Assembly (NCBI RefSeq): GCF_030580675.1
Contig: NZ_JAUQUB010000001.1
Location: 992,001-1,056,000 of the forward strand
DNA length: 64,000 nucleotides
Origin: Antiquaquibacter soli
Lineage (GTDB): Bacteria; Actinomycetota; Actinomycetes; Actinomycetales; Microbacteriaceae
Direction: 5' to 3'
Part shown: positions 8,110 through 26,802 of the stretch, piece after piece
Position numbering within the stretch: the first letter of the stretch is position 1
Layout: each line of letters begins with the position of its first letter
Position numbers and translations under genes: made by a program
The notes under the pieces: generated by a model
Told to the model about the DNA's origin: nothing
Database searches by the model: none
Seen by the model: the letters and a program-made list of their open reading frames with translations, nothing else

Positions 8110-8110
8110 G

Positions 8111-9604: not shown

Positions 9605-9614
9605 GGGGCTCCTA

Positions 9615-10601: not shown

Positions 10602-10624
10602 GAATCGTTCCTCTCTGAACTGAT

Positions 10625-10642
10625 TCTGGAACCCTTTCCAGA
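10625..10642 (-). promoter_or_regulatory. LacI-type operator A, upstream of the ABC transporter operon
   Basis: Perfect 7-4-7 inverted repeat TCTGGAA-CCCT-TTCCAGA, 24 bp upstream of the binding-protein start and 7 bp downstream of the candidate -10 box. It is the best-conserved palindrome of a seven-member set in this island, and its position after the promoter suits repression. Confidence 0.75.
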
Positions 10643-10649
10643 CACCCAG

Positions 10650-10680
10650 AGTCTATGCGCGGTCTTGACGGCTTTGTCAA
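10650..10680 (-). promoter_or_regulatory. Promoter of the ABC transporter/CoA-module operon
   Basis: On the minus strand, a perfect -35 TTGACA (10680-10675) and a -10 TAGACT (10655-10650), spaced 19 bp. Operator A follows. It probably drives the eight genes from 10601 down to 1720. Confidence 0.65.
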
Positions 10681-10741
10681 TAGCGGGGAGCCAATCGATT
10701 CCTCGCGAGACGGGGCGCGCCGCGTCCTTGCGGAGCTCGGG

Positions 10742-10755
10742 TGGAAATGATTCCA
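10742..10755 (+). promoter_or_regulatory. LacI-type operator B, upstream of the mutarotase/regulator genes
   Basis: Inverted repeat TGGAA-ATGA-TTCCA (5-4-5), 66 bp before the RhaM-like start. A possible -10 (CATACT, 10773-10778) would place this operator over the -35 region. As the LacI gene is second in the operon, this site implies autoregulation. Confidence 0.7.
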
Positions 10756-10821
10756 TTCTTGCGCGATTGCACCATACTTGTCACCACCGGTGGCGGCACC
10801 GGACCGATCGAAAGGAACGCA

Positions 10822-11136
10822 ATGGAGCGGGTCTGTTTCAGTTTCGAGCTCTTCGAGGGCGCCGAGGACGAGTACAAGAAGCGCCATGACGAGATCTGGC
10901 CGGAACTCGTGGAGGTGATCCAGTCAGCCGGTCTCAAGAACTACAGCCTCTTCCGGAGAGGCACTCTCGTCATCGGCTACGTCGAAGCCCACCCCGATGC
11001 AGCGACCGCGTTCGCGAAGGTCGGCGAAAGCGAGTACAACTCGAAGTGGTCGGAATGGTTCCGCGACCTCATCGTCAACCAGGCCGACAACCACGGGCAG
11101 ATGCTGCGATTCACCGAGGTGTGGCACCTCGATTAG
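10822..11136 (+). CDS. L-rhamnose mutarotase family protein (RhaM/YiiL type)
   Basis: A 104-aa protein of the RhaM family, which interconverts alpha and beta anomers of deoxyhexoses such as L-rhamnose. It shows the family blocks CFSFELFEGAEDEYKKRHDEIWPEL and NYSLFRRG, and ends FTEVWHLD. The pattern includes the conserved His of RHDEIWPEL. The start is ATG at 10822 with GAAAGGAA upstream. A 27-codon upstream extension covers operator B and is rejected. Close relatives also occur in L-fucose oxidation clusters, so the sugar could be rhamnose, fucose or a relative. First gene of the plus-strand operon with the LacI regulator. Confidence 0.85.
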   Translation: MERVCFSFELFEGAEDEYKKRHDEIWPELVEVIQSAGLKNYSLFRRGTLVIGYVEAHPDAATAFAKVGESEYNSKWSEWFRDLIVNQADNHGQMLRFTEVWHLD

Positions 11137-11180
11137 TCCATCCTGATTCAGGAGCACCGTCAGACAGGGGAGGCAACGAC

Positions 11181-12203
11181 ATGGAAGAACCACGGGCCGT
11201 CACGATTCACGACGTCGCGACGCGCGCGGGGGTCGCCGTCTCCTCGGTGTCCCGGGCGCTGAGCTCCCACCCCGATGTCAGCCCCGCCATGAAGGCGAAG
11301 GTGTTCGCCGCCGCGGAGGAGCTCGGCTACACGCCGGACCCCGGCGCTCAGAGCCTCCGCAGCGGGTTCACGCGGACGATCGGCTTCGTGGTCCGCGACT
11401 TCGCGAACCCGTTCTTCGGCGACATCATCCACGGCGTCGAAGAGGCCCTCAACGACGCGGGCTACACGCTCCTCGTGACGAACAGCAGCGGGGACCCGGG
11501 CCGCGAGGTCGATCGGCTCACCCTGCTGCGGCAGCGCAAGGTCGACGCGCTCCTGCTCTCCTCGATCTCGGAGGCCTCGACGCGCACGAGCAAGGCGGTA
11601 GCGGGCTTCACGCGGCCCGTCGTGCTCATCGACCGCGACCCGCGAAAGCTCAAGGCCGGGAGCGTGCTCCTCGACCACGCCCAGGGGGTGCGGGATGCCA
11701 CGGCCGACCTCATCGCGCTCGGGCACCGCCGCATCGCCATGATCACCGGGTCGACGGCGATTCGACCGACTCGCGAGCGTCTTCGCGGCTACACGGAGGC
11801 GTTCGAGGCGGCGGGCATCCCGATCGACGAGGCGCTGCAGGCGCCCGGTGCCTTCTCGGCGGCCTTTGCGCGAGAGACGACGGAGCGGCTCCTGGCCCTC
11901 CCTCCCGCGGAGCGGCCGACGGCGATCGTCGCCGGCGGCGTGCAGACGACGATCGGGGTCCTGGAGGCCTTCTCGGAGCTCGGCCTGCGCCCCGGCGACG
12001 ACGTCTCGCTCGTCGTGTGCGACGACTTGCCGTGGTTGCGGGTCATGCGCCCGCGCTTGAGCGTCGTCACGCGCGACGCCGAGGAGATGGGTCGTCAGGC
12101 CGCCGGGCTAGCCCTCGAGCTCATCAAGGGCGGGGAGCCCCGGTCGGTGACCCTCCCGACGGCGTACGAGGTCCGCGAGACCTCGCGACCGGTCTCGGTC
12201 TAG
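11181..12203 (+). CDS. LacI family transcriptional regulator of the catabolic island
   Basis: A 340-aa LacI/GalR repressor. The helix-turn-helix covers residues about 8-27 (TIHDVATRAGVAVSSVSRAL), followed by the hinge region (YTPDPGAQSLRSG) and a periplasmic-binding-protein-like effector domain (TIGFVVRDFANPFFGDI onward). ATG 11181 is preceded by GGGGAGG. The gene lies near the middle of the island. Seven palindromes with a LacI-type centre lie at the island promoters, so it most likely represses all of them and releases on binding the sugar or an intermediate. The effector is unknown. Confidence 0.92.
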   Translation: MEEPRAVTIHDVATRAGVAVSSVSRALSSHPDVSPAMKAKVFAAAEELGYTPDPGAQSLRSGFTRTIGFVVRDFANPFFGDIIHGVEEALNDAGYTLLVTNSSGDPGREVDRLTLLRQRKVDALLLSSISEASTRTSKAVAGFTRPVVLIDRDPRKLKAGSVLLDHAQGVRDATADLIALGHRRIAMITGSTAIRPTRERLRGYTEAFEAAGIPIDEALQAPGAFSAAFARETTERLLALPPAERPTAIVAGGVQTTIGVLEAFSELGLRPGDDVSLVVCDDLPWLRVMRPRLSVVTRDAEEMGRQAAGLALELIKGGEPRSVTLPTAYEVRETSRPVSV

Positions 12204-12206
12204 GCA

Positions 12207-13361
12207 GTGCTCGAGACCCCGCTCGACCGCGTCCGCGATCTGGTGCGCGGGGCGGTCGGATTCGAATCCGGGGTCGCCTCGGTCGCCCCGCTGCGCCTGC
12301 CCGAGTGGACACGGAGCCAGCAGTTCGATCCGTGGATCGAGCGCTGGTCGGCGCAATCGCTCGGCGTGCACCTCTCGACGCGGTCGGCGGCCAGCGTGGT
12401 CGAGCTCGACATCGAGGCGACTCGCATCCTCCCGCCCGGGGAGTCGCAATCACTCTTCCCCGCCGCGATCGTGGCCGAAGTCGACGGCGTCGTCGTCGAC
12501 CGGGTCGCCATCGACGAGGGCCCGGTCGTGCGCACGCTCTCCGATCGCACCGCCGAGTTCATCGCCGGCCCGGCCGTCACCGTGCGCCTCGACCTCGGTG
12601 CGGCGGCGGGGGAGCGGGACGTCGTCGTCTGGCTTCCGCACAACGCTCGCGCCGTCATCCACGCGGTCCGCTCCGATGCGCCGCTGGACCCGCCGCGGCT
12701 CACCGGCCGGCGGGTCTGGCTGCACCACGGGAGCTCGGTCAGCCACGGCATCGAGGCCGACGGACCGCTCGGGCCGTGGCCGCAGCAGGCCGCGCGATCG
12801 CTCGGGCTCGACATCGTCGACCTCGCGATCGCGGGCAACGCCCAGCTCGACCCGTTCGTCGCGCGGACCCTCGCCTCGATCCCGGCCGACGTGGTCTCGC
12901 TCAAGCTCGGTGTCAACGTCGTCAACGGCGACACGATGCGGGCGCGGGCGTTCGTGCCGGCGTTGCACGGGTTCCTCGACATCGTGCGCGACGGGCATCC
13001 GGGAATCCCCATCCTCGTGTGCTCGCCGATCGCCTGCCCGGCCATCGAGGAGACTCCCGGACCGACCGCAAAGGGACCGGACGGCCGGTACCGGGGCACC
13101 GACCGCCTGGTCGTGCCGGGCGACGGCACGCTCACGCTGAGCGTCGTGCGGCACCTCGTCCGCTCGGTCGTCGAGGCGCGGGATGACTCGGCGCTCTACT
13201 ACGACGACGGGCTCGAGCTCTTCGGCCTCGACGACGCCGCGCTCCTGTGGGACGGACTGCACCCGGACCAGCGCGGGTACGACCTCATCGCCCGGCGGTT
13301 CGTCGACCGCGCCCGATCCGACACTCCGACGGGCCGCGCGTTCGCCCCGGTGCTGCGCTGA
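12207..13361 (+). CDS. SGNH/GDSL-family esterase with N-terminal beta domain
   Basis: A 384-aa hydrolase. The SGNH blocks are visible: block I LHHGSSVSHG with the catalytic Ser (about residues 172-181), block II AIAGNAQ, block III KLGVNVVNG and block V DGLHPDQRG with the Asp/His pair. The first about 165 residues look like an all-beta domain as in two-domain SGNH carbohydrate esterases. No signal peptide is seen, so it should act inside the cell. The GTG start at 12207 is 4 bp after the LacI gene stop. It could deacylate an esterified sugar, but the substrate is not known. Confidence 0.8.
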   Translation: MLETPLDRVRDLVRGAVGFESGVASVAPLRLPEWTRSQQFDPWIERWSAQSLGVHLSTRSAASVVELDIEATRILPPGESQSLFPAAIVAEVDGVVVDRVAIDEGPVVRTLSDRTAEFIAGPAVTVRLDLGAAAGERDVVVWLPHNARAVIHAVRSDAPLDPPRLTGRRVWLHHGSSVSHGIEADGPLGPWPQQAARSLGLDIVDLAIAGNAQLDPFVARTLASIPADVVSLKLGVNVVNGDTMRARAFVPALHGFLDIVRDGHPGIPILVCSPIACPAIEETPGPTAKGPDGRYRGTDRLVVPGDGTLTLSVVRHLVRSVVEARDDSALYYDDGLELFGLDDAALLWDGLHPDQRGYDLIARRFVDRARSDTPTGRAFAPVLR

Positions 13362-13365
13362 ACGC

Positions 13366-13394
13366 TTGACGGCGCCCCGCCACGACACTACTCT
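13366..13394 (+). promoter_or_regulatory. Promoter upstream of the VOC/SDR genes
   Basis: -35 TTGACG (13366-13371), 17-bp spacer and -10 TACTCT (13389-13394), immediately followed by operator C. It gives the VOC and SDR genes their own regulated promoter inside the plus-strand cluster. Confidence 0.65.
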
Positions 13395-13408
13395 CGGAAA
13401 CGATTCCA
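13395..13408 (+). promoter_or_regulatory. LacI-type operator C
   Basis: CGGAA-ACGA-TTCCA, abutting the -10 box of the VOC/SDR promoter. It matches the seven-site consensus TGGAAwCGwTTCCA with one mismatch. Confidence 0.75.
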
Positions 13409-13434
13409 CCTTTCGACGACGAAACGGAGGGGCA

Positions 13435-13884
13435 GTGCCCGCTGTCACCGGCTTCTTCCACGCGGGAGTCACCGTCCGCGACATGGAGGCCTCGCTGGGC
13501 TTCTATCGCGACGGTCTCGGCCTCGACGTGCACCTCGACCGCGTGCTCGACGCCGACTACCTGCGCACCGTGCTCGCGCTCGACTTCGAGTCCATCCGAG
13601 CGGTGTACTTGACGATACCCGGCGGAGGTTTCGTCGAGCTGCTCGAGTACCGCGGAATCGAGCGCCTCTCGGCCGCCTCGCGCCCCAACGACTTCGGCGC
13701 CGGCCATCTCTGCCTCTACGTCGAGGGCATCGACGAGCTCGTCGAGCGCCTCCGAGCCGTCGGGGGATCGGCCCGCTCCGCGGGAGTTGTCGACATCACG
13801 AGCGGCCCCAACGAGGGGGCCCGCAGCATCTACATGAGAGACCCCGACGGATACCCCGTCGAACTGTTCGAGCGGAAGGCGTGA
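13435..13884 (+). CDS. VOC superfamily (glyoxalase/epimerase-like) metalloprotein
   Basis: A 149-aa vicinal-oxygen-chelate protein. Two beta-alpha-beta-beta-beta modules carry the probable metal ligands: His of FFHAGVTV, Glu of VELLEY, His of GAGHLCLY and Glu of PVELFE. Members include glyoxalases, methylmalonyl-CoA epimerase and ring-cleaving dioxygenases. Here an isomerase or lyase on a sugar-derived intermediate is plausible. GTG 13435 is preceded by GGAGG with close spacing. An 84-codon upstream extension covers operator C and the SGNH gene and is rejected. The next gene starts 2 bp after this stop. Confidence 0.83.
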   Translation: MPAVTGFFHAGVTVRDMEASLGFYRDGLGLDVHLDRVLDADYLRTVLALDFESIRAVYLTIPGGGFVELLEYRGIERLSAASRPNDFGAGHLCLYVEGIDELVERLRAVGGSARSAGVVDITSGPNEGARSIYMRDPDGYPVELFERKA

Positions 13885-13885
13885 C

Positions 13886-14620
13886 ATGACCGGGACAGCC
13901 GTCGTAACGGGCGCGGCGAGCGGCATCGGCCGCGCCGTCGCCTATCGGCTCCAGAGCGAGGGACTCGACGTCATCGCCGTCGACCGGGACCCCGCGGGGC
14001 TCGCGCCGCTCGAGGCCGACGGCATGACCATCCTCGCGGCCGACCTGTCGACCGAGGACGGCCGCGACGCCGTCGTCGCCGCCGGAGAGGGATGCCGCGC
14101 GCTCGTGAACTCCGCAGGCATCAATATCCTCAAGCCCATCCTCGACCTCACGGTCGACGATCTTCAGCGCATCTACCGCGTCAACGTCGACGCGGTCTGG
14201 GATCTCACCTCCCGCATCGGTCGCACGATGCCGTCCGGGGCTGCGATCGTCAATCTGTCGTCGAGCTCGGCGAAGCTCGCCTCGACCGTCGAGGCGGCGG
14301 CCTACGCGTCGTCCAAGGCCGCCGTGCTCTCGATCACCCGGTCCTTCGCCTACGCCTTCGCCCCGAGCAACGTGCGGGTCAACGCGATCTGCCCGGGCAT
14401 CGTCGACACTCCCATGCAGGACAAGGTGCTCGCCGAGGTCGCCGCGTCGCGCGGCATGACCCTCGAGCAGCTCTCCGCGGAACGTGCGAAGTCGGTTCCG
14501 CTCGGCCGTGGCTCGAGCGCCGAGGAGTGCGCGGGCGCGATCTGGTTCCTGCTCTCCGACGAGGCCGGCTACATGACCGGTCAGGCGCTCAACTTCACCG
14601 GCGGCCTCGTGATGTGGTGA
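13886..14620 (+). CDS. SDR family NAD(P)-dependent dehydrogenase (copy 1 of 4)
   Basis: A 244-aa classical short-chain dehydrogenase. It has the cofactor motif TGAASGIG near the N-terminus, NSAGI as the NNAG-like element, and the Ser...Tyr-x3-Lys catalytic set in NLSSSSAKL and YASSKAA. The C-terminus ends FTGGLVMW. It likely oxidises a sugar or 2-keto-3-deoxy-acid hydroxyl with NAD(P)+. It is the last plus-strand gene of the mutarotase side and converges with the phosphotriesterase-like gene 8 bp downstream. It differs clearly from the three SDRs at 17793, 18550 and 21556. Confidence 0.9.
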   Translation: MTGTAVVTGAASGIGRAVAYRLQSEGLDVIAVDRDPAGLAPLEADGMTILAADLSTEDGRDAVVAAGEGCRALVNSAGINILKPILDLTVDDLQRIYRVNVDAVWDLTSRIGRTMPSGAAIVNLSSSSAKLASTVEAAAYASSKAAVLSITRSFAYAFAPSNVRVNAICPGIVDTPMQDKVLAEVAASRGMTLEQLSAERAKSVPLGRGSSAEECAGAIWFLLSDEAGYMTGQALNFTGGLVMW

Positions 14621-14628
14621 TCTCCCGC

Positions 14629-15648
14629 TCAGCCGAGCGAGAGCCACCGCGCGGGGGTGCGCACGAGGAGGCGGTCGAGGTCGTCGTCGGTCGCGCCGTG
14701 CGACCGCAGGACCGGCACGAGGTGCCGGAGGAGGTGGCCGTACCCCCACCCCCCGTACCGGCGCAGCCGGGTGCGCACGCCGATGTCCTGCGAGATCATC
14801 ACCCGGTCGGCGGCCCGGCCGTGCAGCAGCCGGACCGTCTCGGCCATGACCTCGTCATCGCTCGCCGGCCAGCGCCCCGCGCCGAGCAGCGAGTGGTCGA
14901 AGCCGCACAGGTCGAACGAGATGTGCGCGCCCGTCGCGAGCGCCCGCTCGACCTGGCCGGGCCGAGCGAGTGCCGTCGTCATGTGGTTGAGCAGGACGCG
15001 CTCCGGAGCGAGCCCGGTACCGGCCACGACCGCCATCACCCGCTCGGCGGTGTCACTCCAGGGGTGCAGGTGGATGGACAGCGGCAGACCCGTCTCGAGC
15101 GCCGCGCGCGCGGCACCGCGCACGACAGCGAGCTCGCTCGCGGTCGGCGGATCGGAGGTGCCGATCTCGCCGATCATCCCGGGCCGAGGTCCGGAGCGCG
15201 CTGCGTCGGCGACGATCGCCTCGAACGCGGCGCGCTCCTCGTCGCCCGGCGGCAGGTGGGAGCGGTGGGTCGCCTCCAGGTAGTAGCCGGTTCCCATCAC
15301 CACGTGGAGGCCGCTGTCGGTCGACATGCGCTCGAGGGCGCCCGGGTCGCGACCGAGGTCGAGGGGAGTGGCATCCACGACGGCCCCGCCGCCGAGAGCG
15401 GCGAAATCGAGGAGGTCGTCGAGGACCGGCTCGTCCTCCGTGAAGCGGTAGTTGTCGGGATGCGCGCCGGGATTCCACCGGCACTCCGCCGCGATCGCGG
15501 CATCGAACTCGCCGAGGCCCTCGGAGGGGGAGTAGCCGTGCGCGGCGAGCAGCGGGGAGCAGTCCATGCGGATGTGCTCGTGCACGAGGGTCGTGCCGAG
15601 CGCTGCGGCCGGGATGTCGCCGCGCACGGTGCGGACGGTGCCGCTCAC
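14629..15648 (-). CDS. Phosphotriesterase-family amidohydrolase (probable lactonase)
   Basis: A 339-aa binuclear metal hydrolase of the PTE/PHP family. Ligands are recognisable: HxH in LVHEHI (His 23 and 25), the bridging residue as Glu in MIGEIGTS in place of the carboxylated Lys of classical PTE, His in SIHLHP and NHM, and Asp in SQDIG. Several such enzymes hydrolyse sugar lactones. The start is GTG at 15648, overlapping the amidohydrolase stop (GTGA). The long upstream frame is a shadow of that gene. Last gene of the three-gene operon under operator D. Confidence 0.82.
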   Translation of the reverse strand: MSGTVRTVRGDIPAAALGTTLVHEHIRMDCSPLLAAHGYSPSEGLGEFDAAIAAECRWNPGAHPDNYRFTEDEPVLDDLLDFAALGGGAVVDATPLDLGRDPGALERMSTDSGLHVVMGTGYYLEATHRSHLPPGDEERAAFEAIVADAARSGPRPGMIGEIGTSDPPTASELAVVRGAARAALETGLPLSIHLHPWSDTAERVMAVVAGTGLAPERVLLNHMTTALARPGQVERALATGAHISFDLCGFDHSLLGAGRWPASDDEVMAETVRLLHGRAADRVMISQDIGVRTRLRRYGGWGYGHLLRHLVPVLRSHGATDDDLDRLLVRTPARWLSLG

Positions 15649-16532
15649 AGCCGATAGAGCCGGGCGGCGTTCTCGCTCAGGATCTTCGACTGCTCCGAGT
15701 CGGAGAGCTCGGCGATGTACTCGCGGTACAGGTCCATGATGACGTCGTAGCTCGAGTAGAGGCGGTCGACGGGCCAGTTGGAGCCGAGCACGCAGCGATC
15801 GGGTCCGAACGCCTCGACGCACGCGTCCACCCAGCGCCGCAGCGAATCGCGCGTGAACCGGGGATCGGTCATCGCGAGCCCCGAGATCTTGCACGTGACA
15901 TTGGGGGCCGATGCGAGCTCCGTGAGCGATCGCTTCCAGTTCTCGAAGTACTCGTCGTCGCGCGACCTCGGGAAGCCGATGTGCTCGAGCACTACGGAGA
16001 GGTCGGGATGGCGCCGGGCGAGCTCGGTGCCGGCCGGCATGTTCATCCACTCGCAGTCCAGGTCGTAGACGAGGCCGCGCTCGGCGAGGACGCGGAGGGA
16101 TGCCTCGTACACCGGGTTGATCTCACCGGCGGCGAGCATCGGCTCCGCGGCGAAGTCCCGGACTCCCACGAAGTAGGGGGACTCGGCGTGTCCGTCGAGC
16201 TGGGCGATCGCGTGCTCGGTGCCGAGGTCGGCGTGGGCGACGATCGTGAAGGGCACGGGAGCGGATTCGCGCATGCGCGTGAGCCAGCGGGTCTCGTCGA
16301 CGGGGTCGGCGGACCCCAGGGCCGCCTGGACGTGCACGAATCCGCTCACGTCCGCGAAGCGCGACTCGGCGAACACCGACTCGATGGTGTACTTGACCGA
16401 CTTCATCGCGTCGATGTCGCCGAGGATCGGGTGGACGAACTCCTTCTCGAGCCACACCCACTTCATTCCGAGGTCGGGGGTGGCCATGTCCCAGAAGTGG
16501 ACATGGGTGTCGATGATGGGGTGCCGCGTCAT
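15645..16532 (-). CDS. Amidohydrolase family 2 protein (L-fuconolactonase/COG3618-like)
   Basis: A 295-aa TIM-barrel hydrolase with the N-terminal metal motif IDTHVHFWD (His 10 and 12), VLEHIGFPR, a KISGL block and GSNWPVD near the C-terminus carrying the conserved Asp. The COG3618 group includes sugar-acid lactonases such as L-fuconolactonase and 4-sulfomuconolactonase, so lactone ring opening after sugar oxidation fits. ATG 16532 is preceded by GAAAGGA. It lies between an enolase-superfamily dehydratase and a second lactonase-like gene. Confidence 0.85.
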   Translation of the reverse strand: MTRHPIIDTHVHFWDMATPDLGMKWVWLEKEFVHPILGDIDAMKSVKYTIESVFAESRFADVSGFVHVQAALGSADPVDETRWLTRMRESAPVPFTIVAHADLGTEHAIAQLDGHAESPYFVGVRDFAAEPMLAAGEINPVYEASLRVLAERGLVYDLDCEWMNMPAGTELARRHPDLSVVLEHIGFPRSRDDEYFENWKRSLTELASAPNVTCKISGLAMTDPRFTRDSLRRWVDACVEAFGPDRCVLGSNWPVDRLYSSYDVIMDLYREYIAELSDSEQSKILSENAARLYRL

Positions 16533-16561
16533 CGGGGCGTCCTTTCGTCGTTGTCGGTCGA

Positions 16562-17725
16562 TCAGTGGGCCGGGGCCGGCTCCAGGGGAAGCTCGGTGCG
16601 GTAGCGCTCGATGTAGTCGAGGTCCAGCTCCCACCCGAGGCCGGGACCGGTGGGCAGCTGGATGTGCCCGTTCTTGAGTTCGGGCTTGTTCGCGATGATG
16701 TTGTGCCAGATCGGGTCGCGCTGCGGGTGGAAGTACTCGAGGAACGTGCCGTGGGGGATGCTCGCGAGGAGGTGCGAGGCGACCTGGGGCTCCTCGTGGT
16801 GGGCCATCCGCACGTCGTAGACGCTCGCGATCGCTGCCGCCCGGCGCCACTCCGTCGGCCCGCCGGACCACGAGGAGTCGAAGTTGCAGAAGTCGATCGA
16901 TCCGGTCTCCATGAGGTCGCGGCAGCCCGCGGCGGAGAACTCGCTCTGGCCGGCGCACACCGGCACACCGCCCTGCAGCCGCACGTCGCGCATCGCGCGC
17001 CGGTCGTTCTGCCAGACGCACGGCTCCTCGAACCACATGATGTCGCAGTCCTCGACGAGCTGGGCGAACCGGATCGCCTGCGCGGGAGTCCAGCCCTGGT
17101 TCGCGTCGACTGCGAGCTTGAAGTCGGGACCGGCGGCGGCGCGTGCTTCGCGGAAGCGTGCCGCATCCTCCTCGGGGCTCAATCCGCCGATCTTGAACTT
17201 CATGCCGGCGAACTGCGCCTCGACGAGTCCGCTGACTTCCGCGGCGATGTCGGCGTCCTCGGCGTAGTAGCCGCCGATCGTGATGACGGGAACCTCGGTG
17301 CGGTAGCCGCCCCACAGCTTGTGCAGCGGCATGTTCAGCGCCTTGCCCACCGCGTCCCAGATGGCGACGTCGACGCACGCGGTGGCGACGAGGCCGAGGC
17401 GGCGGTCGCGCAGGATGTCCCACGTCGCCGGGCGGGCGAGCTGCCAGCAGCGCTCCGTCGCGAAGGCGTCCTCACCGACGAGGACGGGAGCGATCTCGTT
17501 GAGGATGATCGCATTGATGTCCGCGAGCCCGGCGTCCTCGTCTCCCGCGTAGGCCTCACCGATGATCCCGCTCGCGGTGTGGATGCGAGTGATGATCGTC
17601 GACCGGTGGGTCATGCGGTAGTGGCTGCCCTTGTAGACCCGGTCGAGCGGGACTCGGACGGCGACCGTCTCGATGCGTTCGATCGTGAGGTCGGGCAGGG
17701 AGAGTGCCCCCGAATCCTGCGTCAT
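16562..17725 (-). CDS. Mandelate racemase/enolase superfamily sugar-acid dehydratase (copy 1)
   Basis: A 387-aa enolase-superfamily protein. Key residues are visible: the KxK motif at about 176-178 (MKFKIGG), Mg2+ ligands Asp 207 (VDANQ), Glu 233 (WFEEP) and Glu 262 (AGQSE), Asp 283 and His 309/310 (MAHHEEPQ), as in the mandelate racemase subgroup. The expected reaction is dehydration of a sugar acid to a 2-keto-3-deoxy acid, though epimerisation is possible. It is the first gene of an operon with two lactonase-like genes. Promoter and operator D lie directly upstream. Confidence 0.88.
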   Translation of the reverse strand: MTQDSGALSLPDLTIERIETVAVRVPLDRVYKGSHYRMTHRSTIITRIHTASGIIGEAYAGDEDAGLADINAIILNEIAPVLVGEDAFATERCWQLARPATWDILRDRRLGLVATACVDVAIWDAVGKALNMPLHKLWGGYRTEVPVITIGGYYAEDADIAAEVSGLVEAQFAGMKFKIGGLSPEEDAARFREARAAAGPDFKLAVDANQGWTPAQAIRFAQLVEDCDIMWFEEPCVWQNDRRAMRDVRLQGGVPVCAGQSEFSAAGCRDLMETGSIDFCNFDSSWSGGPTEWRRAAAIASVYDVRMAHHEEPQVASHLLASIPHGTFLEYFHPQRDPIWHNIIANKPELKNGHIQLPTGPGLGWELDLDYIERYRTELPLEPAPAH

Positions 17726-17746
17726 TGCGACTCCTAGTTTCGTTTC

Positions 17747-17760
17747 TGGAAACGTTTTTA
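17747..17760 (-). promoter_or_regulatory. LacI-type operator D
   Basis: One perfect half-site and one degenerate half around a central ACGT (TGGAA-ACGT-TTTTA). It touches the -10 box of the 17725 promoter. It is the weakest palindrome of the seven, but it has the same position relative to the promoter. Confidence 0.65.
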
Positions 17761-17789
17761 TTCTGACCGGCTGAACTCGACGATGTCAA
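17760..17789 (-). promoter_or_regulatory. Promoter of the dehydratase/lactonase operon
   Basis: Minus strand: perfect -35 TTGACA (17789-17784), 18-bp spacer, -10 CAGAAT (17765-17760). Operator D follows immediately. Confidence 0.65.
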
Positions 17790-17792
17790 GAC

Positions 17793-18500: not shown

Positions 18501-18549
18501 CGCAGGTCCTTCCTTTCTTGTGGTTCCGCCCGCCGTCTTCGGCCGGGCC

Positions 18550-19314
18550 CTAGTACATGAGCTGTCCGCCGGACACGTTGATGATCGACCCGGTGACGAA
18601 CGACGACGCGTCGGAGGCAAGGAAGAGCACCGCGCCCGCGAGCTCGTCGGTTCGGGCGAGCCGCCCGAGCGGGATCATCGACAGGAAGGAGGCCATCGCC
18701 TCCTCGGACATCCCCTCGCGCATCATCGCGGTGTCGACGCCGCCCGGCGCGACCGCGTTGACCCGGATGCCGTGCGGCGCGAGTGATCTCGCGAGGCCCT
18801 TGGTGAGCGTCGCGACGCCGCCCTTGCTCGCGTTGTAGACGACCGAACCGCCGAACCCGCCCGTCCACCAGCCCTGCGACGAGAACGTGACGATGGCACC
18901 CGGGGTATCGGCGTCGCGCAGCGCGCGGCTCGCGGCGCGGGCGAGGAAGAACGTCGCCTTGAGATTGACGTCGAGCTGGGCATCCCAGTCCTCTTCCGTC
19001 ACGTCGTCGATGCTCGAGTTCCGGCGTAGGACGGCGGCGAGGTGGGCGAGCGCCCGGAACGGCGCGAGCTCGTTCGCGGCCGCGAAGACCCCGGCGTGCG
19101 CGTCGAGGTCGAGCAGATCGAGCTCGAGGGCGCGGTGCGGCCCGCCCGGAAGGCCCTCCACGACCGATGCGACCGGCGAGCCGGGAACGTCGACCGCCAC
19201 GACGTGGGAGCCCGCCTCGGCGAACGCCCGGGCGACGGACCGCCCGATCCCGCCGGCCGCGCCCGTCACGACGACGCTGCGTCCCGCGAGTCCCGAATCA
19301 CTTCTCCAGTCCAT
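18550..19314 (-). CDS. SDR family NAD(P)-dependent dehydrogenase (copy 3 of 4)
   Basis: A 254-aa classical SDR. TGAAGGIG sits near residues 18-25, and the catalytic set is in TFSSQGWW and YNASKGG. The C-terminus is NVSGGQLMY. It resembles the copy at 21556 in length, C-terminal ending and the TFSS motif, suggesting these two are paralogues. ATG 19314 lies inside the end of the preceding medium-chain dehydrogenase gene (17-bp overlap), indicating translational coupling. Confidence 0.88.
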   Translation of the reverse strand: MDWRSDSGLAGRSVVVTGAAGGIGRSVARAFAEAGSHVVAVDVPGSPVASVVEGLPGGPHRALELDLLDLDAHAGVFAAANELAPFRALAHLAAVLRRNSSIDDVTEEDWDAQLDVNLKATFFLARAASRALRDADTPGAIVTFSSQGWWTGGFGGSVVYNASKGGVATLTKGLARSLAPHGIRVNAVAPGGVDTAMMREGMSEEAMASFLSMIPLGRLARTDELAGAVLFLASDASSFVTGSIINVSGGQLMY

Positions 19315-20374
19315 GGCTCTCCCCTTCTCTCTCGGTCGTCTCGTCTCCGATGACGAGCACCGTGCGCAGCACCCGGCCGGCCCTCAGGTCGTCGAGCGCC
19401 GCGTCAGCCTCGCGCAGCGGCCGTCTCGACCGGGTCAGATGATCGGTGCGCAGCGCCCCCGCCCGCACGAGGTCGAGCACCTCGGCGATGTCGTCGCGGG
19501 TGAAGCCGCGACTGCCGAGCAGCGCCAGCTCGCGCCAGATGAGCTCGGTGGCGGCGACCGCGAAAGGCTCCTGCGATACCCCGACGAAGACCACTCGCCC
19601 GCCGGGTCCGGCGATGTCGATCGCGAGCCTGTCCATGGCCGGGTTCTCCCCGACGCATTGCAGCACGACATCGATCGGCCCGCCCGCCGCGTCGACGACG
19701 GCGCCCGCACCCGACGCCGAGTCGATCGTGACCGCGGCGCCGAGGTCGCGCGCCTGCTCGAGCTTCGCGGCGCTCCTGCCGACGGCGACGACGTGGGCAC
19801 CGAGGTGCCGGCCGATCTGAACGGCGTTGCTGCCGATGCCGCCGACCCCGACCACGGCGAGCGTCTCGCCGGGCTGCAGGCGGGCGATGCGGGTGAGTGC
19901 GTGCCACGGCGTGGCGAGAGCGTCGGTGGCGACCGCGACGACGGCGGGGTCGAGCTCCGGCTCCACCGGCACGAGCGTGCTCAGCGGCCGAGTCACGTAC
20001 TCGGCGAACGCCCCGTCGACGTCCACGCCCATGCGCCGGATGCCGGGGCCGAGGTTCTCCCGGCCGCGATCCGTCCACGGCTGCTGTGCTCCGTCGATGT
20101 AGTACAGGGCCACCTGGCGGCCCACCCAGCTCTCGTCGCCGGGGTCGCCGACGGCGATCACACGGCCGGCCGCCTCGTGCCCCGGCACGACGGGGAGCTT
20201 GTCGCCGAAGCCGCCCTCCTGGAGGAAGACGTCCGAGCCGCACACGCCGCACGCCTCGACGCGAACGAGTGCCTCACCCGCCGCAGGGGCCCGGACTTCG
20301 AGCTCGACGGGGTCGAGACGCGCACGGTCGGGGCGCATGACGAGGGCGAGGCCGCTCGACGGGAGCGGCGTCAT
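19298..20374 (-). CDS. Zinc-type medium-chain alcohol dehydrogenase without the structural-zinc cysteine cluster
   Basis: A 358-aa MDR dehydrogenase. The catalytic zinc site is seen in ACGVCGSD and GHEAAG, and the Rossmann motif in VVGVGGIGSNAV. The usual four-cysteine structural-zinc lobe after the GHE motif is missing: that stretch (YYIDGAQQPWTDRGRENLGPG) has no Cys. It should oxidise a sugar or polyol hydroxyl with NAD(P)+. ATG 20374 overlaps the stop of the Cys-rich protein gene (ATGA). Second gene of the operon under operator E. Confidence 0.87.
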   Translation of the reverse strand: MTPLPSSGLALVMRPDRARLDPVELEVRAPAAGEALVRVEACGVCGSDVFLQEGGFGDKLPVVPGHEAAGRVIAVGDPGDESWVGRQVALYYIDGAQQPWTDRGRENLGPGIRRMGVDVDGAFAEYVTRPLSTLVPVEPELDPAVVAVATDALATPWHALTRIARLQPGETLAVVGVGGIGSNAVQIGRHLGAHVVAVGRSAAKLEQARDLGAAVTIDSASGAGAVVDAAGGPIDVVLQCVGENPAMDRLAIDIAGPGGRVVFVGVSQEPFAVAATELIWRELALLGSRGFTRDDIAEVLDLVRAGALRTDHLTRSRRPLREADAALDDLRAGRVLRTVLVIGDETTEREGESHGLEK

Positions 20375-21483
20375 CCGGATCCCGGCATGCGGAAGACGGT
20401 CGGGTCGGGCAGGTCCACGGCTCCGTGGGCGCGCGAGCCGAACTCGCTCGGCTTGGTGCGCCCGCTGCGCGTGTACGCCTCCTCGGGGGCGGCGGTCGGG
20501 TCCTTGTACATCGTCCACTTGCACTTCGGGGGAGCGCCGCTGTCGTCCACCGCGCCATACACGGGCGGGTCGACGACGCGAACGGGGTATCCGAAGCGGT
20601 CCATGGGCATGTGCTCCATGAGGATGATGCAGTGCGAGCAGTAGAGGCAGACGCCCTTCTGGTAGTGGTTCCAGTCGCGCTCCTCCTCGGACACGCGCCA
20701 CTCGTAGGGGGGTTCCATGCGGGCCGGGGTCCCCTCGATGGGGTCGCCCCGCAGCGTCCGACCGCCCGATCCGCACGGATCGAACTCGAGCTCGAAGCGG
20801 TCGGCGTACTCGGCGAGCTCGAAGTCGCCGGTGCGCTCCGGGCCGACGAGGTGGCCGCGCATCGCCTCGCACGAGACGTAGAGCAGCGTTTCGAGGCCCT
20901 CGTCCCACGGGTGCTTGTCGATGTCGAACTTTTCGTAGCGCCAGGCGAAGAGCGGCAGCAGCACTCGCTCGTACATCCGAGGGATGGCGTCATCGCCGTA
21001 CCGGGCCGCGGTCTCGCTCATGTAGCAGTAGGTCTTGTCGACGTCGCGATCGTGGGTGCGGCGCCAGACCTCCTTGGCCTCGTCGAGCCGCTCGCGAACG
21101 GAGCTCGCGTCGCGGGCGTCGACGGCGGCGATCACCTCTCCGATGAGGGCGTTGAACCGCTCCCACTCGGCGTGGGTGTCGAACGCACTCCCGTCGGGCA
21201 TCACGGTGAGCTCGTCGAGCCGCGCCCGGATCGCATCGAGGTCGGTCTCGCTCGTGCCTTCGTCGCGGAGGAAGCCCTCCAGGTCGGCGAGCCACTGCCG
21301 GTAGAGCTTCCAGCACACGGCCGCCTCGTCGACGAAGTAGGCGGCGAGATCGCGCGCCCCGTCCCAGTCTCCTGCTTCGCTGCACTCGATGATGCGGCGG
21401 TAGGTCGAGACCTTCTGGTCCTCCCAGCTGCCGAGTCGAACCCGGCGGCCGAGGATGTCAGAGAACCCCATCGTTTCTGTCAT
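20371..21483 (-). CDS. Uncharacterised 370-aa cysteine-containing protein, first gene of a LacI-controlled operon
   Basis: I do not recognise the family with confidence. The first about 170 residues are helical and charged. The second half has FDPCGSGGR, then a CLYCSHC cluster (CxxCxxC) followed by HMPMDRFGYP and a further Cys in PPKCKW. That is suggestive of a metal site or a thiol-active centre. No signal peptide or membrane segment is visible. The FDPCGSGGR element recalls some hydrolase families with a catalytic Cys, but I cannot confirm this. ATG 21483 sits 6 nt after a TAGGGT -10 box. Two dehydrogenases and a third SDR follow in the same operon. Confidence 0.75.
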   Translation of the reverse strand: MTETMGFSDILGRRVRLGSWEDQKVSTYRRIIECSEAGDWDGARDLAAYFVDEAAVCWKLYRQWLADLEGFLRDEGTSETDLDAIRARLDELTVMPDGSAFDTHAEWERFNALIGEVIAAVDARDASSVRERLDEAKEVWRRTHDRDVDKTYCYMSETAARYGDDAIPRMYERVLLPLFAWRYEKFDIDKHPWDEGLETLLYVSCEAMRGHLVGPERTGDFELAEYADRFELEFDPCGSGGRTLRGDPIEGTPARMEPPYEWRVSEEERDWNHYQKGVCLYCSHCIILMEHMPMDRFGYPVRVVDPPVYGAVDDSGAPPKCKWTMYKDPTAAPEEAYTRSGRTKPSEFGSRAHGAVDLPDPTVFRMPGSG

Positions 21484-21489
21484 GGTGCG

Positions 21490-21519
21490 ACCCTAGCGTC
21501 TGGGACCAATTAGCTGCAA
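21490..21519 (-). promoter_or_regulatory. Leaderless-type promoter of the 21483 operon
   Basis: Minus strand: -35 TTGCAG (21519-21514), 18-bp spacer, -10 TAGGGT (21495-21490), then 6 nt to the ATG at 21483. Transcription would begin at or next to the start codon. Operator E lies just upstream of the -35. Confidence 0.6.
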
Positions 21520-21524
21520 TGGGT

Positions 21525-21542
21525 TCTGGAAAGGATTCTAGT
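21525..21542 (-). promoter_or_regulatory. LacI-type operator E
   Basis: TCTGGAA-AGGA-TTCTAGT, a 7-4-7 element with two mismatches from perfect symmetry, lying between the SDR stop at 21556 and the promoter of the 21483 gene. Unlike the other sites it sits upstream of the -35, unless a TAGAAT inside the operator is the true -10. Confidence 0.68.
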
Positions 21543-21555
21543 TTTTCTGCCGAGA

Positions 21556-22317
21556 TCAGTACATGAGCAGGCCGCCGCTGACGTTCACCGTCGCACCGGA
21601 GACGAATGAGGCGTGATCCGAGACAAGGAACACGGCCACCGCCGCCACCTCCTCCGGCGAGCCCATCCGGCCGAGAGGGCACGCCGCCGCCGTCGCCGCC
21701 ATCGTCTCGTCCGTATTGCCGCGGGACTGCATCGGCGTGTCGATCTGACCCGGCGCGATGCAGTTGACGGTGACGCCGGCGGGGCCGAGCGAGCGGGCGA
21801 AACCCCGCGTCAGAGCGACGACGCCTGCCTTCGAGGCGACGTACGCGTCGCTGCCGAGGATGGGGCCGGACTGCCACGCGATCGACGAGAACGTGACGAT
21901 CCGTCCGCCACGCCCCCTCGCCTCGAGCGCCTCGCCCACCGACCGGACGAGGAAGAACGTGCCGCGCAGATTGACCTCGTGCTGGGCATCCCAGCTCTCG
22001 GGCGTCACCGCCGCGACCGGCTCGCGCCGCAGCAGGGCGCCGGCGTGGACGAGCCCGAGGAATCCGTCGTCCGCCGCAGCGCCGACCGCCGTCCCGATCG
22101 CGGCCGGATCCGCGAGGTCGAGGGGCAGGGCACGGTGGCCGTCGCCCGGCAGCGCCGCGAGCACGCCGGCGAGATCGGCGGCGGGATGGTCGGATGCCAC
22201 GACTCTCGCGCCGCTCGCCGCGATCGCCACCGCCACGGCGCGGCCGATGCCGCCGGCCGCGCCGGTGACGAGCACCGAGCGCCCGTCGAGCCCTGCGCCC
22301 AGAGCGGGCCCGGTCAC
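21556..22317 (-). CDS. SDR family NAD(P)-dependent dehydrogenase (copy 4 of 4)
   Basis: A 253-aa classical SDR with TGAAGGIG near residue 20, catalytic residues in TFSSIAWQ and YVASKAG, and the ending NVSGGLLMY. GTG 22317 overlaps the stop of enolase-superfamily copy 2 (GTGA), which decides the start; 291 upstream codons are a shadow of that gene. Last gene of the three-gene operon from 24376. It likely works with the dehydratase before it, for example as a 2-keto-3-deoxy-acid dehydrogenase. Confidence 0.88.
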   Translation of the reverse strand: MTGPALGAGLDGRSVLVTGAAGGIGRAVAVAIAASGARVVASDHPAADLAGVLAALPGDGHRALPLDLADPAAIGTAVGAAADDGFLGLVHAGALLRREPVAAVTPESWDAQHEVNLRGTFFLVRSVGEALEARGRGGRIVTFSSIAWQSGPILGSDAYVASKAGVVALTRGFARSLGPAGVTVNCIAPGQIDTPMQSRGNTDETMAATAAACPLGRMGSPEEVAAVAVFLVSDHASFVSGATVNVSGGLLMY

Positions 22318-23447
22318 GGCAGTCGGTAGTGCTCGAGCACCTCGACAATCGGCTCGACGCCGATCCCGGGCGACGTGGGCACGGCGACGAGGCCGTCCGC
22401 CTGGCGGATGGGCGTGGCCACGAGCTCGTCCTGCATGGGGTTCGGTTCGGGCTTGAGCTCCTGCAGCAGCGTGCGGTCGGTGGAGGCCGAGAGGGCGAGC
22501 GAGACCGCCGTGTTCACGGCGCTCGACCACGCGTGCGAGTTGAACCAGCGGCGCTCGCGCTCGACGAGCGAGATCACCTGCAGCGCTCCGGTGACGCCGC
22601 CGACGCGGCCCACGTCGCAGCCGACGACGTCGACGAGGCCGTCCGCGAGCACCCCCTCGTAGCCGTGCACGTCCCACTCCCGCTCGCCCCCGGCGAAGAG
22701 GCACGTCGTGTGCTGGCGCAGTGTCGTGAGCTCCTCGGAGTGGTCGGGCTCGAACGGCTCCTCGATCCACGTGAGGCCGAACTCCTCGAAGCCCTGCACG
22801 CGGCGGATGGCTTCCTCGAGCGTCCACGTGAGCTTCTTGCCGCGGTCCATCATGATCATCGCGTCCGGGCCCGCCTGCTCGCGCAGCCGCCGCACGAAGT
22901 CGATGTCGCGGTCGACGTCGTAGCCGAGTCGGGCATCCCCGCGCTTGCCCATGCCGATCTTGAAGCCGCGGAACCCCTGCTCGGTCACGAAGCGGCCGTG
23001 CCGCTCGGCCTCGAACTGGAGGTCGGCGTCGAACGCGTGCGTCGATGCGATCGCGGGGATGCTGTCGCGGCGCGCGCCTCCGAGAAGGTCGACGAGGCTC
23101 ACCCCGAGGAGCTTCCCCTTGAGGTCCCACAGCGCGATGTCGACAGCGGAGAGGGCGAAGGAGTAGATGCCGCCGCGGTGCCCGAACCACCAGCCCTCGT
23201 CGACGAGGTCGCGCCAGAGTGCGACGTTGGCGAGCGGGTCCCGGCCGACAAGCAGCTCCCGCATCCCCTCGATGAGTTCGACGGTCGCGCGACTGGCCGC
23301 GGGGAACATGGTGATCGCCTCGCCCCAGCCCTCGGCGCCGTCGCTCGACCGGATGCGCACGAAGACGAGGCAGCGCAGGCCCATCGAGTCGTTCGGCTCG
23401 GGGTACTGGACGGCGAAGGTGTCGATCGACGAGATGGTCGTGCTCAT
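22314..23447 (-). CDS. Mandelate racemase/enolase superfamily sugar-acid dehydratase (copy 2)
   Basis: A 377-aa enolase-superfamily enzyme. Lys 163 (FRGFKIG, only the second Lys of the usual KxK), Asp 201 (MMDRGKK), Glu 229/230 (WIEEP), Glu 255 (AGGERE), Asp 278 and His 305 (NSHAW) fit the mandelate racemase subgroup with a His/Asp dyad. It is only distantly similar to copy 1, so the two probably act on different acids or epimers. ATG 23447 overlaps the stop of the DapB-like gene (ATGA). Confidence 0.87.
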   Translation of the reverse strand: MSTTISSIDTFAVQYPEPNDSMGLRCLVFVRIRSSDGAEGWGEAITMFPAASRATVELIEGMRELLVGRDPLANVALWRDLVDEGWWFGHRGGIYSFALSAVDIALWDLKGKLLGVSLVDLLGGARRDSIPAIASTHAFDADLQFEAERHGRFVTEQGFRGFKIGMGKRGDARLGYDVDRDIDFVRRLREQAGPDAMIMMDRGKKLTWTLEEAIRRVQGFEEFGLTWIEEPFEPDHSEELTTLRQHTTCLFAGGEREWDVHGYEGVLADGLVDVVGCDVGRVGGVTGALQVISLVERERRWFNSHAWSSAVNTAVSLALSASTDRTLLQELKPEPNPMQDELVATPIRQADGLVAVPTSPGIGVEPIVEVLEHYRLP

Positions 23448-24376
23448 GGGGCTCCTTGCGGGACGAGGGCGGGTGCGGGGAAGGCCGGCGGCAGGTCGGC
23501 CACGGTGACCCAACCCGGCCGAGCCGCCACCACGCGGTCGACCGAGTTGGAGATGAGGGCCCGCGAGCCGGCCTGGGAGCCGAGCCCGGGGGAGAGGGAG
23601 CAGTCGAGGTCGCCGTCGCCGACGCGCTCGAGGCGGATGCGGTCGCCGCTCGGGATGCCGTGGGCCGCGAGGTCCACTCGCCCGACGAAGTGGGCGGAGT
23701 ACCACTCGGCGCCGTCGGGACCGCGGGCGATGTAGTGCTGGTCGATGCCGGTCGTCAGCCCGTCGGGGCCCACGACGGGCTCGAGCCTCGCCTCCACGTC
23801 GTCCACCAGCCTGCCCGTCGCCGCCGCGACCACCGCGATCGACTGCGGGAAGCCCGCGTGGCCGAGGATTCGCCCGTCGGCGAGGCGCTCGCGGAACTGC
23901 CGCTCGGTCACGCCGAGTCCGAGTCGACCGGCCACTGCCGGGCCGAAACCGCCGAGCTCGACCCGGCGCTCCACCTCGATCCGCGATACCGCCCCCGCCG
24001 CTCCGAGGAGCGTCAGAACGAGCGCGTCGAAGACGAAGCCGGGGTTGAGCCCGGCTCCGAGGATGCTCACCCCGCGCTCGCGGGCGAGCGAGTCGAGCTC
24101 GTCGGCGAGGCCGGCGTCGACGCTCCACGGGTGGGCGCATTCCTCGGCCGAGACGAGCACGTTCGACCCGGCCCCGACCGCGGCGCGGATAGCGGGGGCG
24201 ACGTCCACGAGCCGCGTCGTCGTCGCGACGATGACGACGTCGGCGCCGCTATCGAGGGCGACGGGGAGGCGGTCGGATCCGACCGGGCCGGTCAGGCGCA
24301 CGTCGGCCCGCACGGAGAGCGCGTCGGCGACGCCTCGACCGAGCTGTCCGTCTCCGGCGATGGCGACGTGGATCAC
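23444..24376 (-). CDS. DapB/2,4-diaminopentanoate-dehydrogenase-like NAD(P)-binding oxidoreductase
   Basis: A 310-aa protein with an N-terminal Rossmann fold (IHVAIAGDGQLGRGVADAL), the strand ending DVVIVATTT, and the motif GAGLNPGFVFD that is characteristic of 2,4-diaminopentanoate dehydrogenase-like proteins in the dihydrodipicolinate-reductase superfamily. The C-terminal domain is alpha/beta. In this cluster it could reduce or oxidise a keto/hydroxy or amino intermediate; the substrate is unknown. It is the first gene of the operon controlled by operator F, divergent from the E1 genes. Confidence 0.75.
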   Translation of the reverse strand: MIHVAIAGDGQLGRGVADALSVRADVRLTGPVGSDRLPVALDSGADVVIVATTTRLVDVAPAIRAAVGAGSNVLVSAEECAHPWSVDAGLADELDSLARERGVSILGAGLNPGFVFDALVLTLLGAAGAVSRIEVERRVELGGFGPAVAGRLGLGVTERQFRERLADGRILGHAGFPQSIAVVAAATGRLVDDVEARLEPVVGPDGLTTGIDQHYIARGPDGAEWYSAHFVGRVDLAAHGIPSGDRIRLERVGDGDLDCSLSPGLGSQAGSRALISNSVDRVVAARPGWVTVADLPPAFPAPALVPQGAP

Positions 24377-24410
24377 GGCGATTGTCCTGTCCGCGGAAGC
24401 AGCGGCGCTC

Positions 24411-24424
24411 CCGAATCGTTTCCA
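24411..24424 (-). promoter_or_regulatory. LacI-type operator F
   Basis: CCGAA-TCGT-TTCCA on the plus strand, 3 bp beyond the -10 of the leftward promoter and 35 bp upstream of the ATG at 24376. The TTCCAGA half is perfect. Confidence 0.72.
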
Positions 24425-24427
24425 GAA

Positions 24428-24457
24428 ACTCTAGGGCGACGCGCCGCCGACGGTCAA
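24428..24457 (-). promoter_or_regulatory. Leftward promoter of the divergent pair
   Basis: Minus strand: -35 TTGACC (24457-24452), 18-bp spacer, -10 TAGAGT (24433-24428). It drives 24376 to 21556. Confidence 0.65.
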
Positions 24458-24462
24458 TGGCG

Positions 24463-24491
24463 TTGACGAGCGAGCGCCTCCGCCCTATTCT
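24463..24491 (+). promoter_or_regulatory. Rightward promoter of the divergent pair
   Basis: -35 TTGACG (24463-24468), 17-bp spacer, -10 TATTCT (24486-24491). The two divergent -35 boxes are only 5 bp apart. It drives the E1 beta, E1 alpha and lipoyl genes. Confidence 0.68.
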
Positions 24492-24504
24492 CGAAACGAT
24501 TCCA
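24491..24504 (+). promoter_or_regulatory. LacI-type operator G
   Basis: TCGAA-ACGA-TTCCA, overlapping the last base of the rightward -10 box. It mirrors operator F about the shared promoter centre. Confidence 0.75.
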
Positions 24505-24525
24505 GGAACGAAGGGACCCAGCGTC

Positions 24526-26563: not shown

Positions 26564-26802
26564 GCGAGTCGCGAGTGACCATGCCGCGCGTGTCCGAGAC
26601 GATCGACGAGTTCTACGTCGTCGAGTGGCTTGTCGCGGAGGGCGAGCCCGTCGCCGCCGAGCAGGTGCTGCTGCGGGTCGAGACCGACAAGGCGATCGTC
26701 GATGTGCCGAGCACGGTCGCGGGCACGCTCGTGAGCCAGCTGGTCGCCGTCGACGCCGAGGTCACGACCGGCTCCGACGTCGCTGTGATCGAGACGACGT
26801 AG
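26560..26802 (+). CDS. Free-standing lipoyl (biotinyl/lipoyl-attachment) domain protein
   Basis: An 80-aa protein that consists of a single lipoyl domain. The attachment Lys is at about residue 44 in VETDKAIVDVP, the exact place it has in E2 lipoyl domains. There is no subunit-binding or acyltransferase domain; the gene stops right after the domain. ATG 26560 overlaps the E1 alpha stop (ATGA). It probably carries the acyl group from the E1 pair to an E2/E3 encoded elsewhere, or to an unconventional acceptor. Confidence 0.85.
   Translation: MSESRVTMPRVSETIDEFYVVEWLVAEGEPVAAEQVLLRVETDKAIVDVPSTVAGTLVSQLVAVDAEVTTGSDVAVIETT

Follow-up and report, generated by a model that had tools for sequence, protein, structure and literature searches.

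Can a single regulator of the LacI family govern seven transcription units of one gene cluster? The question is raised by a 64-kb stretch of the genome of Antiquaquibacter soli (contig NZ_JAUQUB010000001.1, positions 992,001 to 1,056,000; hereafter the window, with coordinates counted from its first letter), in which seven similar palindromes stand among seven units, one site ahead of each. The units hold 25 genes in 1720-26563 (about 24.8 kb). The sites are clustered here, lie in a recurring position relative to the promoters, are conserved in two related genomes and are inherited together with the lacI gene of the cluster, which encodes P0001. The locus is a real, conserved and unusually large local LacI regulon. 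It is very likely, with a probability of roughly 0.87 as judged from sequence, that P0001 represses all seven units by binding the seven operators and is released by a sugar or an early intermediate.

Operator sites

The first-pass annotation of this DNA had listed seven palindromes, and all of them were found at the places it gave; two of its positions, 10625 and 21525, proved to be the outer limits of palindromes a little longer than the cores, which start at 10627 and 21527. Mismatches were counted across the window against the 14-bp core pattern TGGAAwCGwTTCCA. Exactly seven matches with up to three mismatches were found and no others, three of them with one mismatch and four with two.

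The first operator, O1 (TGGAAAGGGTTCCA, 10627-10640, minus strand), heads the transporter/CoA-module unit and is identical at 14/14 positions in L043 and L089, contigs from the two related genomes. O2 (TGGAAATGATTCCA, 10742-10755, plus strand) lies over the likely -35 region of the rhaM-lacI-SGNH unit and is a candidate autoregulatory site. O3 (CGGAAACGATTCCA, 13395-13408, plus strand) heads the unit encoding a glyoxalase/VOC-fold protein and a short-chain dehydrogenase (SDR), and O4 (TAAAAACGTTTCCA, 17747-17760, minus strand) that for an enolase-superfamily protein, an amidohydrolase-2 and a phosphotriesterase-family (PTE) hydrolase; both sites are identical at 13/14 positions across all three genomes. 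O5 (TAGAATCCTTTCCA, 21527-21540, minus strand) heads the unit of P0002, an alcohol dehydrogenase (ADH) and two SDRs, with 14/14 positions identical in the three genomes. Finally, O6 (TGGAAACGATTCGG, 24411-24424, minus strand; 13/14 identical across the three) heads the unit of a diaminopentanoate-dehydrogenase-like protein, a second enolase-superfamily protein and an SDR, and O7 (TCGAAACGATTCCA, 24491-24504, plus strand; 14/14 identical across the three) heads the E1 beta and E1 alpha genes.

From gene order, strand and the short or overlapping gaps, we infer that each unit would be read as one transcript. The units so drawn agree with the 25 kb given earlier for the extent of the regulon, the range listed for the sites themselves covering 13.9 kb.

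Promoter geometry and proposed mechanism

In five units (those at 10627, 13395, 17747, 24411 and 24491) we see a TTGAC(A/G/C) box and, 17-19 bp further on, a -10-like box, whose end falls between 9 bp before the operator and 1 bp inside it, and this geometry recurs in both related genomes. Thus O1 lies 9 bp downstream of TTGACA-19-TAGACT, with a second, weaker reading ending 11 bp before the operator; O3 directly follows TTGACG-17-TACTCT; O4 overlaps the -10 box of TTGACA-18-CAGAAT; O6 comes after TTGACC-18-TAGAGT; and O7 overlaps the end of TTGACG-17-TATTCT. At O2 a scripted search gave no good -35/-10 pair at this position. By eye, a CATACT box is found 17 bp downstream and recurs in L043 and in L044, a contig of the second related genome, so O2 covers the expected -35 region. 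O5 itself contains TAGAAT.

A strict promoter scan of 9600-26600 returned four pairs against 0.4 expected from shuffles. Three are in the direction of transcription at 17747, 24411 and 24491, and the fourth overlaps 10742 on the opposite strand. The sites have the properties of LacI-type operators, being even palindromes that are intergenic in all seven cases and stand at promoters. The earlier statement that six of the seven have a readable promoter beside or over them is borne out if 10742, read by eye, is counted; 21527 is the exception.

According to the mechanism that we propose, a dimer of P0001 would occupy each operator, five of them at the -10 box or directly after it and one over the likely -35 region, and would keep all seven units off, its own included. 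A sugar or early intermediate taken up by the ABC transporter of the cluster would bind the sugar-binding domain of P0001, which would then leave the DNA, so that the 25-gene cluster would be turned on together. A 6-deoxyhexose, or else a sugar or sugar acid related to it, is the probable inducer, which would be either the sugar as imported or an acid or lactone formed early in the pathway.

Clustering of the motif in the genome

Within the window, seven matches at up to three mismatches compare with 2.51 expected, and 1 of 100 shuffles reached seven, which is weakly unusual. At up to two mismatches, seven sites in 9600-26600 compare with 0.027 expected and with a maximum of one across 150 dinucleotide-preserving shuffles. 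We also scanned the whole genome (3.22 Mb, 14 contigs), with the reversed pattern as control. At up to one mismatch the motif occurs at three places, all of them cluster sites, and at up to two mismatches at 14 places, seven of which are the cluster sites (control, 1). At up to three mismatches there are 84 places against 39 for the control, so the weaker matches are largely noise. The first-pass annotation had held that its proposal would fall if the motif were no more frequent here than elsewhere; the genome scan shows it to be enriched here, since these seven make up half of the places found at up to two mismatches.

Three of the seven places outside the cluster that have up to two mismatches are no more than about 200 bp from the helix-turn-helix (HTH) of other lacI genes. 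These two-mismatch palindromes, at C1:344976, C10:99899 and C11:67343, adjoin the lacI genes L029, L032 and L036, respectively, and it is possible that they are autoregulatory operators of related specificity.

The candidate regulator

P0001 is a 340-residue protein of the LacI/GalR family (11181-12203, plus strand), with an HTH domain (PF00356, 9.6e-16, residues 8-53) and a Peripla_BP_3 domain (PF13377, 1e-29, residues 176-335), both scoring over the curated cut-offs. The genome has 30 LacI HTH matches. One falls inside the window, in keeping with the earlier claim that the island has a single LacI-type regulator. The recognition helix of P0001, VAVSSVSRAL, is found in none of the other 29 matches. 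The case that P0001 binds the sites is strengthened because the protein is co-inherited with them, because one site stands ahead of the lacI unit and because the recognition helix is unmatched in the other 29. P0001 is thus the best candidate regulator of all seven sites.

Conservation in related genomes

Two metagenome-assembled genomes (MAGs) were reached through a scan of genome contigs with P0002, namely L043 (labelled Actinomycetota bacterium) and L044 (labelled Salinibacterium sp.), with the continuations L088 and L089. In a comparison of trimmed genes, all 25 were present in both MAGs with their order unchanged, and identities ranged from 55 to 86% (84-86% for LacI). All seven sites recur at the orthologous promoters in both, L089 completing the cluster of L044. 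The comparison of orthologous clusters that had been proposed as a check therefore finds both the 25 genes, LacI included, and 7/7 sites in each relative, and conservation of sites together with the regulator at orthologous promoters is one mark of a local LacI regulon, another being that the regulator binds the sites and responds to a sugar of the pathway.

The three genomes were aligned from 60 bp upstream of the sites, which may include the ends of neighbouring genes, down to the start codon. Columns identical in all three numbered 85/98 in the operators and 279/656 in the flanking DNA (Fisher p 3e-17), and 10 of the 13 non-identical operator columns belong to 10742. The counterpart of 10627, at the transporter unit, is L089:3280 in the genome of L044. 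A site at L044:20846 was considered for this role and rejected, as it belongs to a duplicated binding-protein gene. The genome of L044 has a second sugar-binding-protein gene with its own, eighth operator (L089:2024-4311), and this duplication suggests how a new gene joined the regulon.

A search of 299 genomes of the family gave no counterpart of P0001 (1e-60) or P0002 (1e-20) in the 298 besides this one; the set was drawn from a larger group and includes at least five genomes of the same genus, and few candidates were scored per genome (at most 7 for P0001 and 6 for P0002). The comparison therefore rests on the two MAGs found through the P0002 scan.

Relatives of the regulator were taken as the 11 best-scoring of 37 matches, from the genomes behind 12 of 15 P0002 loci. 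Ten of these 11, both close orthologues included, have the helix pattern VA[VLMI]SSVSR[AV]L, the exception being L070. The nine that are not close orthologues share about 40-47% identity with P0001. Homologues of cluster genes stand beside several of them: E1 alpha/beta, an amidohydrolase and a transporter in L092, E1 and an amidohydrolase in L095, E1 genes near the lacI of L094, enolase-superfamily genes in L093 and L096, and an isomerase-like gene in L090. No homologous cluster genes were found in the 4 kb of L064. This LacI clade is thus broadly associated with gene sets of this type, whereas conservation of the exact operator is shown for the three close clusters alone. At up to two mismatches the motif also occurs in 6 of 13 distant P0002 loci (L045, L046, L047, L051, L053 and L056) and in none of the rest.

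Alternative explanations

Several observations weigh against control of all seven units by P0001 through the seven operators. None of the seven sites (0/7) matches the consensus perfectly, and the central CG is present in four and missing from 10627, 10742 and 21527, where the centres are CC/GG, TG/CA and GG/CC, respectively. The form TGGAAwCGwTTCCA given by the first-pass annotation thus stands in that all seven sites are within one or two mismatches of it, but not as an exact sequence nor for the centre of three; these three deviating centres are kept in both related genomes. No readable -35 box was seen at 21527. Only 4 of 14 columns of 10742 are identical in the multiple alignment, a figure that comes from misplacement by the aligner, as the ungapped pairs are identical at 11-13 of 14 positions (12/14 to L043, 13/14 to L044). 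Another LacI of the genome, L033, has the same first two recognition residues as P0001 (V, S). Lastly, the motif with up to two mismatches was found in three of the nine distant LacI loci (L090, L093 and L096) and not in L064, L070, L091, L092, L094 or L095, and the L093 site (L093:4983) lies inside a gene match. Like L053:10811, which is inside a P0002 gene, it may be a coding coincidence.

Three other readings of the same sites were considered. P0001 could activate, or could repress only some of the units, with certain palindromes such as 21527 acting as distal or looping sites. The lack of a readable -35 at 21527 and the position of 10742 upstream of its -10 box would suit such an arrangement, whereas the five operators at or just after the -10 box fit steric repression, and 21527 is identical at 14/14 positions in three genomes. 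We consider this reading unlikely.

It could also be that the palindromes are LacI-type operators for which another LacI of the genome, either a global CcpA-like protein or L033, binds some or all, alone or with P0001. The genome has 30 LacI HTH matches, L033 shares the V and S noted above, and the three palindromes near L029, L032 and L036 indicate that related motifs are in use. However, the sites of a global regulator would be expected to be scattered, yet half of those with up to two mismatches fall in 14 kb; no site with up to three mismatches was seen near L033 among the matches listed, which on contig C1 extend beyond L033; and two other genomes have inherited the seven sites together with the LacI of the cluster. 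We therefore hold the involvement of another LacI to be quite improbable. The global CcpA-like site set in particular was rejected, as the sites are clustered and only seven places with up to two mismatches lie outside the island, three of them near other lacI genes.

That the seven are chance palindromes of AT-richer intergenic DNA, over-read by eye, gains something from the weakly unusual window count at up to three mismatches but has a negligible probability, being ruled out by the shuffles and genome counts at up to two mismatches, in the island as in the genome, and opposed by conservation in two other genomes.

The P0002 family

Repression by P0001 would place under common control a conserved protein family that lacks a Pfam match. 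P0002 (370 residues; 20371-21483, minus strand) heads the fifth unit, and its gene was used to find the distant clusters. The scan of genome contigs gave 15 loci for this family (L043-L057), some of them in MAGs of Chloroflexota. P0002 has no Pfam match at 1e-5 and no NCBIfam match at 1e-15, and members of its family show scattered Pfam matches at E 0.02-1. No PDB sequence match was better than E 0.15, profile included. The AF2 model is confident (pLDDT 88.8), and a Foldseek comparison of this model with the PDB gave no match at E 0.001, the best being E 0.34. Many residues are invariant across the family, and a conserved CxxC-x-H-C stretch, formed by C279, C282, H284 and C285, suggests that it binds a metal.

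Relatives of P0002 with 26-32% identity were also seen on four Rhodococcus plasmids. On two of these, L097 and L098, the genes next to the relatives (about 30%) comprise SDRs, a DUF1116 gene and two of the glutamine-synthetase family; to judge by these neighbours, the family occurs in other gene contexts too.

Gene content and probable pathway

The first unit (10601 to 1720, minus strand) begins with a sugar transporter: an ABC-transporter sugar-binding protein (9615-10601; PF13407), the sugar ABC transporter ATPase (8111-9601, start approximate) and the permease (7126-8157). These are followed by a Gfo/Idh/MocA oxidoreductase (6047-7102, start approximate; PF01408) and by a CitE/HpcH-type C-C lyase (5203-6063, start approximate; PF03328, with NF038242 below cut-off and CitE/malyl-CoA lyases as PDB matches). 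Next come a double-hotdog MaoC-type hydratase (4241-5206), matching PDB 2bi0 at 4e-44 and the beta-methylmalyl-CoA dehydratase 8hgn at 2e-12, with PF01575 just under cut-off, and a family III CoA-transferase (3072-4226, start approximate; PF02515), whose best NCBIfam match is succinyl-CoA:mesaconate CoA-transferase at 238 bits against a cut-off of 700. The final gene (1720-3075) encodes a protein distantly like sulfoquinovose/arabinose isomerases (weak NF048012); it shares 37-66% identity with eight relatives and 32% with one more. A 447-residue protein (375-1718, plus strand) that has no Pfam or NCBIfam match is convergent with this end of the cluster, and a homologue, 76% identical, holds the same place in L089:12246-13562.

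The second unit (10822 to 13361, plus strand) encodes a RhaM-type sugar mutarotase (10822-11136; PF05336 1.1e-21, TIGR02625 below cut-off), P0001 and an SGNH/GDSL hydrolase (12207-13361; PF13472). The third (13435 to 14620, plus strand) comprises the VOC-fold protein (13435-13884; PF00903) and an SDR (13886-14620; PF13561). The fourth (17725 to 14629, minus strand) runs from an enolase-superfamily protein presumed to be an acid-sugar dehydratase (16562-17725; PF13378/PF02746, with PDB 3msy, 4h83 and 3no1 at about 2e-159) through an amidohydrolase-2 resembling L-fuconolactonase (15645-16562; PF04909, NF052480 at 124 bits against a cut-off of 400, PDB 4dlf 6e-18) to the PTE-family, lactonase-like hydrolase (14629-15612; PF02126; start approximate, extent from conservation).

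In the fifth unit (21483 to 17793, minus strand), P0002 is followed by a protein of the zinc ADH family (19298-20332, start approximate; PF08240/PF00107) and two SDRs (18550-19314 and 17793-18485, the latter with an approximate start and its extent taken from conservation). The sixth (24376 to 21556, minus strand) holds an oxidoreductase like 2,4-diaminopentanoate dehydrogenase (23444-24376; PF19328, NF040740 below cut-off, PDB 6g1m 8e-41), the second enolase-superfamily protein, also presumed to be an acid-sugar dehydratase (22314-23447; PF13378, PDB galactonate dehydratase 5olc 8e-42), and an SDR (21556-22293, start approximate). The seventh (24526 to 26563, plus strand) encodes the beta (24526-25545; PF02779/PF02780) and alpha (25538-26563; PF00676) subunits of a thiamine-dependent E1; of the proteins scanned in the neighbourhood of this pair, none was named as an E2 or E3. 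Homologues of E1 adjoin related lacI genes in L092 and L095.

The families to which the mutarotase, the fuconolactonase-like hydrolase and both enolase-superfamily proteins belong suggest a substrate resembling a 6-deoxyhexose. The enzyme families of a non-phosphorylative fucose/rhamnose pathway are present, with the NCBIfam equivalog matches shown for them below cut-off. The genes for the family III CoA-transferase, the MaoC-type hydratase and the CitE-type lyase are consecutive (3072-6216, minus strand) within the sugar-transporter unit, which suggests that the sugar pathway may end in cleavage of a CoA thioester. This trio resembles mesaconate- or methylmalyl-type CoA chemistry, and the NCBIfam equivalog matches to all three are below cut-offs.

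More tentatively, the cluster could encode a non-phosphorylative route, so far undescribed, that breaks down a deoxy or otherwise modified sugar, proceeding through lactone hydrolysis, two dehydrations, a thiamine-dependent step, CoA transfer, MaoC hydration and CitE cleavage to central acyl-CoA and keto-acid products. Such a pathway would need a new protein family, that of P0002, for which no fold relative is recognised, and its genes and the LacI clade would have passed among lineages of actinobacterial, chloroflexotal and acidimicrobial descent. Among the matches listed from the open-licence PMC literature, no description of the cluster was found by title or abstract start.

Comparison with known systems

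Regulation of this kind is already known and indeed textbook; the pathway that it delimits and P0002 are less ordinary. The seven operators mark an independent boundary of a 25-gene metabolic unit, so a single pathway and a single inducer can be ascribed to all 25 genes, the P0002 family included. Higher interest would come from the pathway delimited by the regulon.

The closest comparison is with the local LacI regulons surveyed in PMC4052901, most of which control one (31%) or two (38%) operons; over three quarters of local regulators there are autoregulated. As in those systems, an even, usually CG-centred palindrome lies here upstream of catabolic and transport units, the regulator gene is part of the cluster and a site precedes its own unit. 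Non-CG or degenerate centres are also on record there, for 49 + 29 of 1303 regulators. The difference is one of size. The same survey defines a global regulon by more than 15 genes in at least seven operons, and the present one, with seven operons and about 25 genes, reaches that size yet forms a single cluster.

The L-rhamnose regulon of RhaR in Actinomycetales, as presented in PMC3870299, is similar in having a LacI-type regulator in an actinobacterium, and a RhaM-type mutarotase gene is present here. The cluster does not have the make-up of an RhaR-type regulon, as scans of its 25 proteins, in part with an NCBIfam limit of 1e-15, named neither a rhamnose isomerase nor a rhamnulose kinase nor an aldolase RhaD/RhaE; instead it has lactonase-like hydrolases, proteins of the enolase superfamily and a CoA-lyase module.

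A further likeness is to the non-phosphorylative pathways for L-fucose and L-rhamnose, as set out in PMC3870299 and PMC10444878. In SAR202, the latter source reports, non-phosphorylative catabolism of fucose and rhamnose was proposed because these enzyme classes are present in large sets; such dehydratases are paired with dehydrogenases, and growth was enhanced by those sugars (PMC10444878). The cluster described here shares with these pathways its SDRs, fuconolactonase-like hydrolase and enolase-superfamily proteins, and differs from them in combining two enolase-superfamily and two lactonase-like proteins with E1 alpha/beta, the CoA-transferase/MaoC/CitE trio and P0002.

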